From an uncultured Butyricicoccus sp. (GTDB lineage Bacteria > Bacillota > Clostridia > Oscillospirales > Butyricicoccaceae), in the NCBI GenBank assembly GCA_944384655.1, contig CALWUF010000035.1, forward strand, positions 62,001 through 126,000: DNA of 64,000 nt. The letters are read 5' to 3'. Below, one piece after another: positions 367-27,767 of the stretch. The translations under genes were made by a program, and so were the position numbers. Numbering within the stretch: the first letter of the stretch is position 1; each line of letters starts with the position of its first letter. The notes beneath the pieces were generated by a model. It had not been told where the DNA came from. It worked only from the letters and a program-made list of their open reading frames with translations, and searched no databases.

Positions 367-545
367 GTGCGATTGATGTAGGTTTCAAGTCATGTCGGAG
401 AAGTTTGTCACGGTTTTCACATTCGTCAACCTATACAAAAACTTTGCATTCAAATTGTGGGGAATAAATAGCGATAAAATGGGAAAACAGACAATATGCA
501 CAAAAAATAAAAGAATAAACTGTGCAACATTATGAACAATTGCGC

Positions 546-574
546 TTGAAGAAAAAGTGGGAAGTGTGTATGAT
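546..574 (+). promoter_or_regulatory. Sigma-A promoter of the microprotein cluster
   Basis: TTGAAG (546-551), a 17-nt spacer and TATGAT (569-574). Transcription would start near 581, giving a leader of about 190 nt before the first small ORF. Confidence 0.65.
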
Positions 575-607
575 ATAGCCAAGCTGAGGGAAACAAAACC
601 GAGGCGG

Positions 608-684
608 CGGATAACGAAGCGTTGTCCGAAACAGTTCCGAAGGAATGCCAAAAGCTCCGGCTTTCGGAACGCCGTGTGAAACGG
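608..684 (+). other. Three tandem hairpins in the microprotein-cluster leader
   Basis: CGGATAAC (608-615) pairs with GTTGTCCG (621-628) with one G-U. GTTCCGAA (634-641) pairs with TTCGGAAC (663-670). CCGT (72-75 of the 600s) pairs with ACGG (681-684). All three lie between the predicted start site and the first ORF. They could be a cis-regulatory or stabilising element; no known riboswitch class was recognised. Confidence 0.45.
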
Positions 685-771
685 AATCTATGATATGATG
701 CGCAGAACAAAGAAATCTGGCGCACAGAAATAGAAAATCCGCTTCATGAAATTTTTGGAGGTGAAACTATC

Positions 772-867
772 ATGAATCGTTCATTCGGTCAGATGGTTCA
801 CATGTATCGAAAGACATTGTGTAACCGAAAGATTGAACAGGCGAGGATTGCTTATTGCGGTAAGTGA
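772..867 (+). CDS. Microprotein 1 of a seven-ORF cluster, 31 aa, unknown function
   Basis: ATG at 772 is preceded by GGAGGTGA at ideal distance. The 31-residue product begins MNRSFGQMVHMYRKTLCNRK and contains two Cys (residues 17 and 29) and several basic residues. It aligns loosely with microproteins 2 and 3 (F-[DG]-[EQ]-[LM], then a conserved Leu and a Lys-Ile pair), so it is probably a diverged member of the same duplicated family. No signal peptide, membrane segment or known domain is visible. It is the first gene after the leader hairpins. The function is unknown. Confidence 0.55.
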   Translation: MNRSFGQMVHMYRKTLCNRKIEQARIAYCGK

Positions 868-905
868 GTCGCCTGCAGGAATACGGACAAAGGAGTTGAC
901 CCGAT

Positions 906-1004
906 ATGATGAAATGGTTTGATGAGCTGACAAGAGCGCGTATGATGGCGCTGGAGCGGGAAAAAATCTCCTGCATGGCTCATTCGAAAAGTCATCGGAC
1001 TTGA
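906..1004 (+). CDS. Microprotein 2 (type A), 32 aa, unknown function
   Basis: Two adjacent ATGs (906, 909) follow AAAGGAG. The product carries the type A core FDELTRARMMALEREKISC. Microprotein 3 shares ELTRARMMALE exactly, yet the codons differ at five of the eleven positions (both Glu, Thr, Arg and Ala codons), all silently. That pattern indicates selection on the peptide, not on the DNA. The core would form a basic, Met-rich amphipathic helix ending in Cys. The start could be either ATG. I do not recognise the family. Confidence 0.65.
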   Translation: MMKWFDELTRARMMALEREKISCMAHSKSHRT

Positions 1005-1049
1005 TTCACACAGAAATAACCCAATGGATAGCATATAGGAGTGATCAAT

Positions 1050-1139
1050 ATGAATTTCTTTTCTGAACTGACCCGCGCACGTATGATGGCGCTGGAAAAT
1101 GAACGGGTTTCCTGTAGAGTTCGCGCAAACAAGCGCTGA
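1050..1139 (+). CDS. Microprotein 3 (type A), 29 aa, unknown function
   Basis: ATG at 1050 follows TAGGAG with 8-nt spacing. The 29-residue product starts MNFFSELTRARMMALENE and keeps the SC dipeptide of microprotein 2, followed by a short basic tail (RVRANKR). It is the closest paralogue of microprotein 2; the differences between them are mostly synonymous or conservative. It is a helix-forming, strongly basic peptide with no membrane segment. Confidence 0.65.
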   Translation: MNFFSELTRARMMALENERVSCRVRANKR

Positions 1140-1185
1140 GCTGGGTTTCAGGAACAACACACATCAATCTAGGAGGTAAATAATC

Positions 1186-1308
1186 ATGCGTTTTGATGAT
1201 ATGAAGAAGAGTGCGATGATCGGCATAAGAATGCTGAACTATGGATATGTATCCCGTGATGAATTCAGCGAGATGATTCGTGCACATCGCGCACAGTATA
1301 AGGCATAA
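1186..1308 (+). CDS. Microprotein 4 (type B), 40 aa, unknown function
   Basis: ATG at 1186 follows AGGAGGT. The product begins MRFDDMKKSAMIGIRMLNYG and continues with VSRDEFSEMIRAHRAQ. The N-terminal pattern (Phe-Asp, then Met/Leu, Lys/Arg and a Met pair) resembles type A. The C-terminal half is shared with microprotein 5 (V-[ST]-R-x-E-F-x-[ED]-M-[IM]-R-x-H), with silent codon differences at Val, Glu, Phe and His. Two short helices joined by a Gly/Tyr turn are likely. Confidence 0.65.
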   Translation: MRFDDMKKSAMIGIRMLNYGYVSRDEFSEMIRAHRAQYKA

Positions 1309-1352
1309 ATTTTTTCACACACAACCGATTGACAACAAAGGAGTGTTGACAT

Positions 1353-1469
1353 ATGAAATTGTTTGATAACATTGACAGAACCATGATGCTTGGCATGCGA
1401 ATGATGTACGGCGGAAGCGTTACTCGTGCTGAGTTTAACGATATGATGCGTGAGCACAGCAAACACTGA
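1353..1469 (+). CDS. Microprotein 5 (type B), 38 aa, unknown function
   Basis: ATG at 1353 follows AAAGGAG with 9-nt spacing. The 38-residue product starts MKLFDNIDRTMMLGMRMMYG and ends with SVTRAEFNDMMREHSKH. It is the clear paralogue of microprotein 4. It is unusually Met-rich (seven Met in 38 residues). A helix-turn-helix hairpin is plausible. No known domain. Confidence 0.65.
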   Translation: MKLFDNIDRTMMLGMRMMYGGSVTRAEFNDMMREHSKH

Positions 1470-1540
1470 TTGTATTTGCCGGTATGCCCGGCACACAAAC
1501 CGCCTGTAAGACGCATAAAGACCCGGAAGAAGGGAATGCT

Positions 1541-1636
1541 ATGAAACGAACGACCATGACCCGAATCCGATTCGCAGACCGGCATATTCCCGTGACAGTT
1601 ATGGTACAGGAATTTCCCGGAGCAAAAGGTCTGTAA
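1541..1636 (+). CDS. Small ORF 6, 31 aa, unrelated to its neighbours
   Basis: ATG at 1541 is preceded by GAAGAAGGG. The predicted peptide (MKRTTMTRIRFADRHIPVTV plus 11 residues) does not show the type A or B signature. It is kept because it sits in the same transcript with similar size and spacing and has a ribosome-binding site. It is the least certain of the seven. Confidence 0.4.
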   Translation: MKRTTMTRIRFADRHIPVTVMVQEFPGAKGL

Positions 1637-1660
1637 TCGTCCGAGAGGAGGTCTGCCTCT

Positions 1661-1780
1661 ATGAAAGGCAGAGGATTTTTTAGCGAACTGGTCCGTGCAA
1701 GGCAGTTGGGGCTGGAGCGGGAACGAGTAAAGGACCGCATCCGTCTCGAACGGGAGGCGCGGAAAAAAACAGATAAGTAA
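1661..1780 (+). CDS. Microprotein 7 (type A), 39 aa, unknown function
   Basis: ATG at 1661 follows GAGGAGGT. The product contains FFSELVRARQLGLERERVKD, which matches the type A core of microproteins 2 and 3 (F-[SD]-E-L-x-R-A-R-x-x-x-L-E-x-E) and extends into a long, highly charged Arg/Glu/Lys helix. The ribosome-binding site and start codon sit in two overlapping hairpins (AGAGG/CCTCT and CTGCC/GGCAG), which may limit its translation. It ends 20 nt before the cluster terminator. Confidence 0.6.
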   Translation: MKGRGFFSELVRARQLGLERERVKDRIRLEREARKKTDK

Positions 1781-1800
1781 CCGCAAACACATATGTATGG

Positions 1801-1850
1801 AGCGGCGTTCCAAATCCCTTGAAAGAGGGAAGCGGAACGCCGCTTTTGTG
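1801..1850 (+). terminator. Intrinsic terminator of the microprotein cluster
   Basis: AGCGGCGTTCC (1801-1811) pairs perfectly with GGAACGCCGCT (1834-1844). A second hairpin (TCCCTT/GAGGGA) is nested inside, and TTTTG follows. It closes a transcript of about 1.27 kb starting near 581. Confidence 0.85.
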
Positions 1851-2875: not shown

Positions 2876-3361
2876 ATGACGGAACAGGAAAAGTATATGA
2901 GGGCGGCGCTCCGGCTGGCAAAAAAGTCCGCTGAAGAAGGGGAAGTACCGGTCGGTTGTGTCGTCGTCTGCGATGGAAAGATTGTGGGGCGCGGTCGAAA
3001 CCGCCGCGAGACCAAAAAAACAGCGCTGTCCCATGCGGAAATCGAGGCCATTGGCAAGGCATGCAAAAAATTGGGCGGCTGGCGCCTGCACCGTTGTGAC
3101 CTGTATGTGACGTTGGAACCGTGCCCGATGTGTGCGGGCGCAATTATCAATGCGCGAATCAAAACGGTCTATTATGGTGCAGATGACAGGAAAGCAGGGT
3201 CATGCGGCAGTTTGATCAATCTGTTTGACGTGGCGTACAATCATAAGCCGAAAACCGTGCGCGGATTGATGCGGGATGAATGTGCAGATATACTGACAGA
3301 ATTTTTCCGCGAACTGCGCAAAAAACGAAAAGAAGCGCGCAAAGCCGCTGTGGAGCCATAA
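2876..3361 (+). CDS. tadA: tRNA-specific adenosine deaminase TadA
   Basis: A 161-residue zinc deaminase that converts A34 to inosine in tRNA-Arg(ACG), which allows one tRNA to read CGU, CGC and CGA. Visible catalytic motifs are HAE (zinc His and proton-shuttle Glu, about residue 53) and PCPMCAG (two zinc Cys, about 83-86). The N-terminal helix and the C-terminal EFFRELRKKRK are typical of the family. It starts 4 nt after the CPBP gene and is followed by a bidirectional terminator, so these two form a short operon. Confidence 0.95.
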   Translation: MTEQEKYMRAALRLAKKSAEEGEVPVGCVVVCDGKIVGRGRNRRETKKTALSHAEIEAIGKACKKLGGWRLHRCDLYVTLEPCPMCAGAIINARIKTVYYGADDRKAGSCGSLINLFDVAYNHKPKTVRGLMRDECADILTEFFRELRKKRKEARKAAVEP

Positions 3362-3392
3362 ATTTTTATAAATAAGACGTAAAAAAGCAAAG

Positions 3393-3427
3393 AAAAAAGT
3401 CATGACCGATGGGATCATGACTTTTTT
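3393..3427 (+). terminator. Bidirectional intrinsic terminator between convergent units
   Basis: AAAAAAGTCATGA (3393-3405) pairs with TCATGACTTTTTT (3415-3427). The A and T flanks let it work for tadA on the plus strand and for the small membrane gene on the minus strand. Confidence 0.9.
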
Positions 3428-3440
3428 TGCCTGTGATAAA

Positions 3441-3743
3441 TCACTGCATCATTGCGCCGCAGGCAATTGCACCTACCAGGCAGACGATCGATAGGAGGGA
3501 AAACAACAGTTGATGGCGAAATTTCTGTTCAGCTTTGTGCTTTGCCGCAGCAATGTCGATGTCATTTTTTTCGCTGCGGTGAAACAATTGCATCGCGCGT
3601 CCGTCGCGCTTGGCGATGGAGTCGTCAGACAGCTTATCCGATTCGACAGCAAGCTGATTCCAGTCGTGCGTCAGGCGGAAATACATGCCGATGGCGCCGG
3701 ATACCAGAAATCCGATGAGAAACACGATCATAAGAATTTTCAT
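3441..3743 (-). CDS. Small protein with two membrane segments, unknown function
   Basis: A 100-residue protein. ATG (3741-3743) is preceded on the minus strand by GGAGGTGTCCC, which favours this start over the ATG nine codons upstream. Residues 2-20 are an N-terminal membrane helix (ILMIVFLIGFLVSGAIGMYF) and residues about 78-98 a second one (LLFSLLSIVCLVGAIACG). A charged, probably helical stretch lies between them (residues 30-70). This gives a hairpin topology with a loop on one side of the membrane. It lies downstream of secG, separated by a weak hairpin. I recognise no domain. Confidence 0.65.
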   Translation of the reverse strand: MKILMIVFLIGFLVSGAIGMYFRLTHDWNQLAVESDKLSDDSIAKRDGRAMQLFHRSEKNDIDIAAAKHKAEQKFRHQLLFSLLSIVCLVGAIACGAMMQ

Positions 3744-4049: not shown

Positions 4050-4128
4050 GAAAGAATCAACCTCCGAAAAAGTGAAAACAGCGGCGTTCATTGCGCCGGA
4101 TTTCTCAATAAAATAAAACAGTGAAATT

Positions 4129-4157
4129 ATCATAGCATACGCCGCACAGATTTTCAA
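4129..4157 (-). promoter_or_regulatory. Sigma-A promoter of secG
   Basis: On the minus strand TTGAAA (4157-4152), 17 nt, TATGAT (4134-4129). Confidence 0.8.
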
Positions 4158-4206
4158 GGGAGGATTGTCCATCTGGGGCATACTTTTTTGGGAAAACAGG
4201 GAGGGG

Positions 4207-4734
4207 CTATTTTACCTTGCTGACGGTCAACTTGACGCGGTTGGCGAGCGCACGCCCATGGGTATTGACACGGCATGTGCCGTCAGACAGATCGACAACA
4301 CACAGCCGTGCGCTGCACCAGCCATAGCCGTCCTCCGGACGTTTGCGTGTTTCCTCATGCTTGTATTTTTTGATGACTTTCTGTGTTGCGCGGTCAGGTG
4401 TACCCGCAGTGAGTACAATCATGCTCAGCATGGAAAAGCCATGAGACGGTTCTGACCACGGCACATATTGCGCTGCCATGTTGTCGAGCACGGCACAATA
4501 CTCGCCCACAACGGATTCATTCAAACATTCACACACATCGAAATAACAGAACTCATAGGATCGTACCGATTTGCCATTTTTCATAATCAATGTCGAGGTA
4601 TCCTCATGGACATAGGAGGCAAACAGTGGAAACCGGCGTCCGCCGAAGTCCGCGTTGGGAATGAGATGAAAATCGCGTTTCATATCCGATTCAAAGGCGT
4701 TGAGATATTGTGCGGCATGGGTATGGAAATCCAT
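4207..4734 (-). CDS. Conserved hypothetical protein (possibly DUF8052-like)
   Basis: A 175-residue soluble protein starting MDFHTHAAQYLNAFESDM. It has no signal peptide or membrane helix. Recognisable blocks are FPLFASYVHED, KSVRSYEFCYFDVCE, MSMIVLTAGTPDRATQKVIKKYKH and GYGWCSARLCVVDLSDG. From memory these recall a small uncharacterised Clostridia family (DUF8052), but I cannot verify that. It lies 11 nt downstream of the nucleotidyltransferase gene and is almost certainly co-transcribed with it, so a role in the same sugar-nucleotide or surface-glycan process is possible. The function is unknown. Confidence 0.75.
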   Translation of the reverse strand: MDFHTHAAQYLNAFESDMKRDFHLIPNADFGGRRFPLFASYVHEDTSTLIMKNGKSVRSYEFCYFDVCECLNESVVGEYCAVLDNMAAQYVPWSEPSHGFSMLSMIVLTAGTPDRATQKVIKKYKHEETRKRPEDGYGWCSARLCVVDLSDGTCRVNTHGRALANRVKLTVSKVK

Positions 4735-27532: not shown

Positions 27533-27767
27533 GCACTCGCAAGAAGCGGGTGAGCGATGATGCCGGAGATTGCTGCCAGACGCAGGTAACTTCGGCGGAG
27601 TAAGTCCGACAATCGGGCGGTTGAGACAACTGCTAACCTAATCACTGGAATGTTCCCACGTAAGCTCGGGACTGCCAGCGCATATGCTGGAAAGCCGACG
27701 GCAGGAACCACTGCGGTGCAAAATAAGCCGGATCGCTGAACAATACCATCGTTTTGTCCGGTTTTTC
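27533..27767 (+). ncRNA. Structured RNA of about 235 nt, possibly raiA-motif-like
   Basis: A unit with its own promoter and a terminator hairpin (AGCCGGA 27726-27732 with TCCGGTT 27757-27763, then T). No ORF with a ribosome-binding site is present. Helices seen include a 7-bp GCGGTTG/CAACTGC stem with AGA loop, CGGA/TCCG, CTGCC/GGCAG enclosing CCAGC/GCTGG, and GTTCCC opposite GGGAC. The run GGAATGTTCCCACGTAAGCT followed by CGGGAC reminds me of the raiA-motif RNA of Clostridia, but this is from memory. The alternative is an attenuating leader of the ribosomal operon. Confidence 0.5.

Follow-up and report, generated by a model that had tools for sequence, protein, structure and literature searches.

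A conserved array of microprotein genes with a candidate structured leader RNA in Butyricicoccus

Organization of the array

The stretch of DNA analysed here, 64,000 nucleotides from an uncultured Butyricicoccus sp. (referred to as the window), carries an array of seven forward-strand ORFs, each 29–40 codons in length and together spanning positions 772–1780. The array is preceded by two operator-like dyads, a putative promoter and a structured leader, and is followed by a predicted terminator (Table 1). The sequence and the list of ORFs place all seven where an earlier note on this DNA had located them. That note also assigned each ORF its own ribosome-binding site, which holds for six of the seven (Shine–Dalgarno (SD) match of at least 5 bases) and only weakly for ORF6 (gaAGGGaatgct). 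Between positions 751 and 1800, six ATG ORFs of 25–45 codons have an SD match of at least 5 bases, whereas 1000 dinucleotide shuffles of the same region average 0.35 such ORFs and never exceed 3; the minus strand of this region contains none. A gene on the opposite strand was considered and rejected: minus-strand stop-free runs of 82–224 codons occur in some genomes, but their lengths vary freely, no SD-led short minus-strand ORF is found in the window, and the plus-strand frames account for the substitutions. Annotation normally skips genes this small, and length cut-offs conceal the whole operon.

Table 1 Features of the array and its upstream region, in window coordinates.
Feature	Position	Strand	Evidence and remarks
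Operator-like dyad 1	433–460		Half-sites ATACAA (433–438) and TTGTGG (455–460); distance to −10 fixed in 10 of 12 genus genomes
Operator-like dyad 2	498–525		Half-sites GCACAA (498–503) and CTGTGC (520–525); position conserved, left half especially
Putative sigma-70-like promoter, TTGAAG-17-TATGAT	546–574	+	Promoter scan; −10 block GTGTATGATATAG recognisable in 10 of 12 genus genomes, with hardly any change in 9 of them
Structured 5′ leader RNA (candidate), ~90 nt, stem-loops SL1–SL3	581–670	+	Covariation; covariance-model search
ORF1 (type D), MNRSFGQMVHMYRKTLCNRKIEQARIAYCGK	772–867	+	SD GGAGGTGA; G001 and G010 carry homologues; start codon gone in G004
ORF2 (type A)	906–1004	+	SD AAGGAG; HMM E 2.7e-16; purifying selection
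ORF3 (type A)	1050–1139	+	SD AGGAG; HMM E 6.9e-15; purifying selection
ORF4 (type B)	1186–1308	+	SD AGGAGGT; HMM E 1.5e-18
ORF5 (type B), predicted helical hairpin H2-18/H25-37	1353–1469	+	SD AAGGAG; HMM E 6.0e-22; pLDDT 77.8, pTM 0.44
ORF6 (type E), MKRTTMTRIRFADRHIPVTVMVQEFPGAKGL	1541–1636	+	Aligned in 7 genomes; GAKGL end invariant, codons silently variable; broken in G005
ORF7 (type C, sub-type of A), predicted single helix 4–38	1661–1780	+	SD AGGAGGT; type A homologue; pLDDT 86.7
Predicted rho-independent terminator, GCGGCGTTCC...GGAACGCCGC-TTTTG	~1800–1850	+	Sequence; relatives have a hairpin followed by T in the corresponding position, with different stem sequences

Selection on the encoded peptides

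The earlier note had proposed that selection acts on the peptides. Across 15 paralogue or orthologue pairs (509 codons), pN/pS is 0.30 (bootstrap 0.24–0.38) and dN/dS is about 0.23 rather than near 1, in agreement with that proposal; the five silent codon differences described for the ELTRARMMALE block are likewise present. Values near 1 are confined to a few pairs, ORF4 with G003_3 (perhaps not true orthologues) and G005_1 with G005_2. A particularly clear case is provided by genome G010, in which four of the five type A copies encode identical peptides and their DNA differs at 0–4 bases, all of them third codon positions. The pN/pS value and the third-position-only differences require selection at the level of the peptide. 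Codon adaptation is 0.376 in frame, compared with 0.39 for background genes and 0.24 out of frame; as far as codon usage can tell, it does not indicate very high expression. When selection, the third-position changes in G010 and codon adaptation are taken together, the peptides are very likely to be translated, and we are nearly certain that the array is a real coding operon.

Promoter, operator-like dyads and terminators

Promoter-like matches between positions 300 and 2000 number 7, where 3.0 ± 1.7 are expected, and the match at 546–574, taken alone, would be weak evidence for a promoter. Its −10 hexamer (TATGAT) is aligned in 10 of the 12 genus genomes. The terminator hairpin at ~1800–1850 was absent from the output of a simple terminator scan and has counterparts in relatives. 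The single promoter and single terminator of the earlier note are both retained. A separate strong terminator (328–361) closes the preceding mscS gene and, because mscS ends there, the array probably forms a transcription unit of its own.

The two dyads are spaced 65 bp apart, stand at −135/−113 and −70/−48 relative to the −10 block, and have the genus consensus GYACAA-N16-TTGTGY, with half-sites that are degenerate in some genomes. In G008 and G011, only a site resembling dyad 2 is present. Searched genome-wide in the 12 genus genomes, the consensus gives 55 matches compared with 9 for a reversed control, a count in which many palindromes appear twice. The neighbouring genes are mixed and, given this double counting as well, we claim no genome-wide regulon. 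Among the matches are sites in G008 and G011 that precede a gene resembling a membrane transporter.

Downstream of the array, the next gene in 10 of 12 genus genomes encodes a CPBP/Rce1-like membrane protein and carries its own conserved promoter-like box. In the window, this box (ATGACA-17-TATGAT, 1870–1898, conserved in relatives) contains the ATG at 1870 of the longest CPBP reading. The true start of the CPBP gene is probably located downstream of 1870, near 1930.

A candidate leader RNA

Single-sequence folding yields the same three stem-loops of the leader in nearly all of ten genomes. SL1 is near-invariant in sequence, whereas SL2 and SL3 carry compensatory changes and are conserved mainly in shape. 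SL1 contains a 3x3 purine-rich internal loop (GAR/GRA) that hardly varies and is flanked by GCU:AGC and GG:CC. A covariance-model alignment of ten loci contains 23 pairs, with 95.2 % of cells paired and 14 pairs changed on both sides, counts that lean towards pairing since the alignment was fitted to the structure. The pairing score was reached by 0 of 500 shuffles, and sliding does not reproduce it either. Although its sequence is not the same from group to group, SL2 keeps its pairing; RNAalifold applied to a plain MAFFT alignment missed the misaligned SL2, which the covariance-model alignment resolved.

The leader is confidently matched once per genome in 10 of the 12 genus genomes, and the model does not recognise it in G008 and G011. 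A genome-wide covariance search of 87 genomes of the family returned no confident match elsewhere; distant matches in other genera (E 0.002–0.08) were taken as chance. No Rfam covariance model matched between positions 400 and 1900 up to E = 1. We regard the leader as a well-covarying candidate for a new RNA motif. Elsewhere in the window (27549–27629), an S10-Clostridia ribosomal protein leader (Rfam RF03136) lies ahead of a ribosomal protein operon.

Peptide families and predicted structures

ORFs 2, 3 and 7 form one family with the core FFxxLVxARxxxLxxxR, and the motif that the earlier note had described for type A holds in dozens of homologues. ORF7 represents a sub-type, C, which is the final ORF of the array in 7 genus genomes and is related to type A with an hhalign probability of 96.5 %. 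The same note had joined types A and B and ORF1 into a single duplicated family. Only the kinship of A and C is borne out; the hhalign probabilities for A and B, and for A and D (ORF1), are 3.9 % and 5.6 %, respectively, and do not support the wider grouping. Some single-sequence hints exist between A and B: for two of twelve B members, 0 of 300 shuffles reached the observed similarity, and for the others there was no hint. ORFs 4 and 5 constitute a second family (type B) found only in this genus. Two further type B matches (E 0.003–0.005) were not accepted, and one that was examined had no matching ORF. ORF6 belongs to a third, separate family (type E) that ends in GAKGL; seven genomes conserve it, and in one more the ORF is broken. 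Type D was seen in three genomes, with its start lost in G004. As judged by these profile comparisons, at least three microprotein families without detectable mutual relation share one operon.

Pfam, NCBIfam, PHROG, PADLOC and Rfam contain no relative of the array peptides or the leader, in keeping with the earlier remark that the family was not recognised. Two partial likenesses were pursued and rejected. Type B resembles SHOCT (PF09851) in G-x-[VI]-T-x-x-E-F-x-x-[MK] over 11 residues, but the hhalign probability is 25.7 %, HMM scores are no better than those of shuffled peptides, and no SHOCT domain was found in the window's own genome. FbpB of Bacillus (Fur-regulated, PF13040) is a small basic protein with an F-x-x-L-V-like start, a likeness that extends to type A; neither a search of the own genome nor one with 25 type A members gave a Pfam match to it.

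AlphaFold2 predicts one helix for type C (pLDDT 86.7) and a helical hairpin for type B (pLDDT 77.8), in models that rest on 11 and 19 sequences and have pTM values of 0.41–0.44, low values being expected for such short chains. A PDB sequence search found no relative of type A, and Foldseek with the type B model returned nothing below E 1. Weak matches to calmodulin-like proteins were returned for type B (best E 0.017); they have the same helix–linker–helix pattern and were judged to be chance. The peptides are rich in E and R, and mean net charge is +3.3 for type A and +6 for type C. The hydrophobic moment of type A is 0.35, compared with 0.33 ± 0.09 for shuffled sequences (a shuffle made for type A), and membrane attack is therefore not indicated. 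The most conserved residues of type A (F5, L8, R12, L16 and E19) would share one face of the helix, which suits a protein-binding surface.

Synteny, copy number and distribution

The array is located directly downstream of the mscS gene (Pfam MS_channel) in all 12 sampled genus genomes, one of which is Candidatus Butyricicoccus stercorigallinarum (Butyricicoccaceae). This synteny, the leader RNA and the two dyads go beyond what the earlier note had described. The DNA between 540 and 1860 matches 9 of the 11 other genus genomes in a nucleotide search, which missed the arrays of G008 and G011; these were found with a peptide profile. In one genome (G003), leader and array are on two contigs. The constant mscS neighbour, with its own terminator, suggests shared location and not shared transcription. 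In G008 and G011, the CPBP gene is found at another place, without an array beside it. The arrays of these two genomes include an additional small ORF that is absent from the other genomes (L108, ~4060–4360, and L109, ~3310–3730, on the array strand), which in G008 encodes 57 amino acids (MGLIHELAVAQEIGGKRACLKAY...).

Homologous clusters and a variable copy number, two of the observations that the earlier note had looked to relatives for, are both found. Intact loci hold 3–8 ORFs each; G001, for example, has three, G002 and G009 have eight, and the six of G010 are five of type A and one of type D. Across these loci, paralogues come and go by tandem duplication. In the same taxonomic family, a second genus keeps the A/C family, mostly as one gene with a second copy in a few species, and with the peptide MKGFFNDLVAARMLDLDxxRVKxxSRKARRTAK. 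In many species of that genus, the lone type A microgene is located between an aminotransferase gene and an EamA transporter gene (L110, L111, L113, L114 and L117). The loci of the two genera have no functional neighbour in common. One genome of a further genus gave a single match to the A/C family. Among 394 genomes of the order, matches were confined to this genus and the second one, apart from a weak match inside a longer frame; at E ≤ 0.001, there was no match outside the own genome among 391 class-wide and 398 phylum-wide genomes.

Possible functions

The locus comparisons show a conserved operon of very small protein-coding genes, complete with dyads, promoter, leader, tandem ORFs and terminator. 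Tentatively, we favour a regulated operon of intracellular helical microproteins that are adaptor- or regulator-like, are induced as a set, and act on a protein or RNA partner. Types A, C and D would be short basic α-helices and type B helical hairpins, all acting in the cytoplasm and docking on that partner as other regulator or adaptor microproteins do. Induction of the set would come from a DNA-binding regulator acting at the dyads. How stable the mRNA is, or how well it is translated, would be governed by the leader, and having several copies, each with its own start, would increase the dosage and keep it balanced. Somewhat unlikely, in our estimate, is a self-contained module of a new kind, in which the two-operator promoter and the private leader would drive an expandable array of helical paralogues whose copy number tunes the output. 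Within such a module the paralogues would act jointly, either as helical assemblies of mixed composition or through binding to RNAs, the leader of the operon among them.

The same helices are basic, and the leader is confidently found only ahead of the array, with SL1 near-invariant and the other two stem-loops conserved mainly in shape. These observations speak for autogenous control, whereby one or more of the basic peptides would bind the leader, through SL1 and its purine-rich internal loop, and regulate their own synthesis. As in autogenous ribosomal-protein operons, a structured leader stands ahead of small basic protein genes; this leader differs in having no Rfam match, and autoregulation is here only a candidate. 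We consider it unlikely, with G008 and G011 keeping type A peptides although the model does not recognise the leader there.

CPBP/Rce1-like proteins occur as bacteriocin immunity factors. Given such a neighbour in 10 of 12 genomes and several short, unprocessed cationic peptides of ~30 residues encoded in tandem without a leader peptide, leaderless bacteriocins are the most tempting known analogue; the exported peptides would kill competitors, and the adjacent CPBP/Abi-type protein would confer self-immunity. Leaderless bacteriocins of the LsbB type are, moreover, single helices (PMC6131525). Four features of the array make this reading very unlikely. No transporter gene adjoins it in the genus; the E/R-rich peptides are not amphipathic above chance; the immunity-like gene has its own promoter-like box and stays at its locus in G008 and G011 without the array, so that it is unlinked to the array's presence. 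Finally, the array is conserved genus-wide at a syntenic core position, which to our knowledge is unlike most bacteriocin loci.

The strong covariation of the leader, and peptides for which no target is known, could also point to an RNA-only element, either a small RNA or a cis-regulatory element with ORFs that are incidental or regulatory upstream ORFs; peptide-level selection, the retention of the peptide without the leader in the second genus and a terminator that ends the unit ahead of the next gene make this highly improbable. We give equally little credence to a toxin–antitoxin or anti-phage module built of microproteins: copy number changes fast, several small types occur together and the second genus has single copies, but PADLOC and PHROG gave no match, the array is absent from the viral contigs and phages searched, its location is core and syntenic, and none of the peptides resembles a hydrophobic type I toxin.

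Comparison with known small-protein families

In gut bacteria, small-protein families have been recorded by the thousand, by comparative genomics and MetaRibo-Seq (PMC7324362) and in the GMSC catalogue (PMC11364881). The array ORFs share with these their shortness, conservation and usual lack of annotation, as well as ribosome-binding sites, purifying selection and the lack of a known domain. They differ in that five types and several paralogues stand in one operon with a dedicated leader and paired dyads. Taken singly, conserved microproteins are of a known kind; what is new is the grouping of several families into one array that has a leader and paired dyads of its own.

Conserved bacterial microproteins of fewer than 50 residues are numerous and have mostly been studied as orphan single genes. 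Here, microprotein families without recognisable kinship are held in one regulated, syntenic operon of a gut genus, together with a leader RNA that occurs once per genome. With its natural copy-number variants, the array offers a small, self-contained system in which to ask what bacteria gain from maintaining multiple tiny paralogues.
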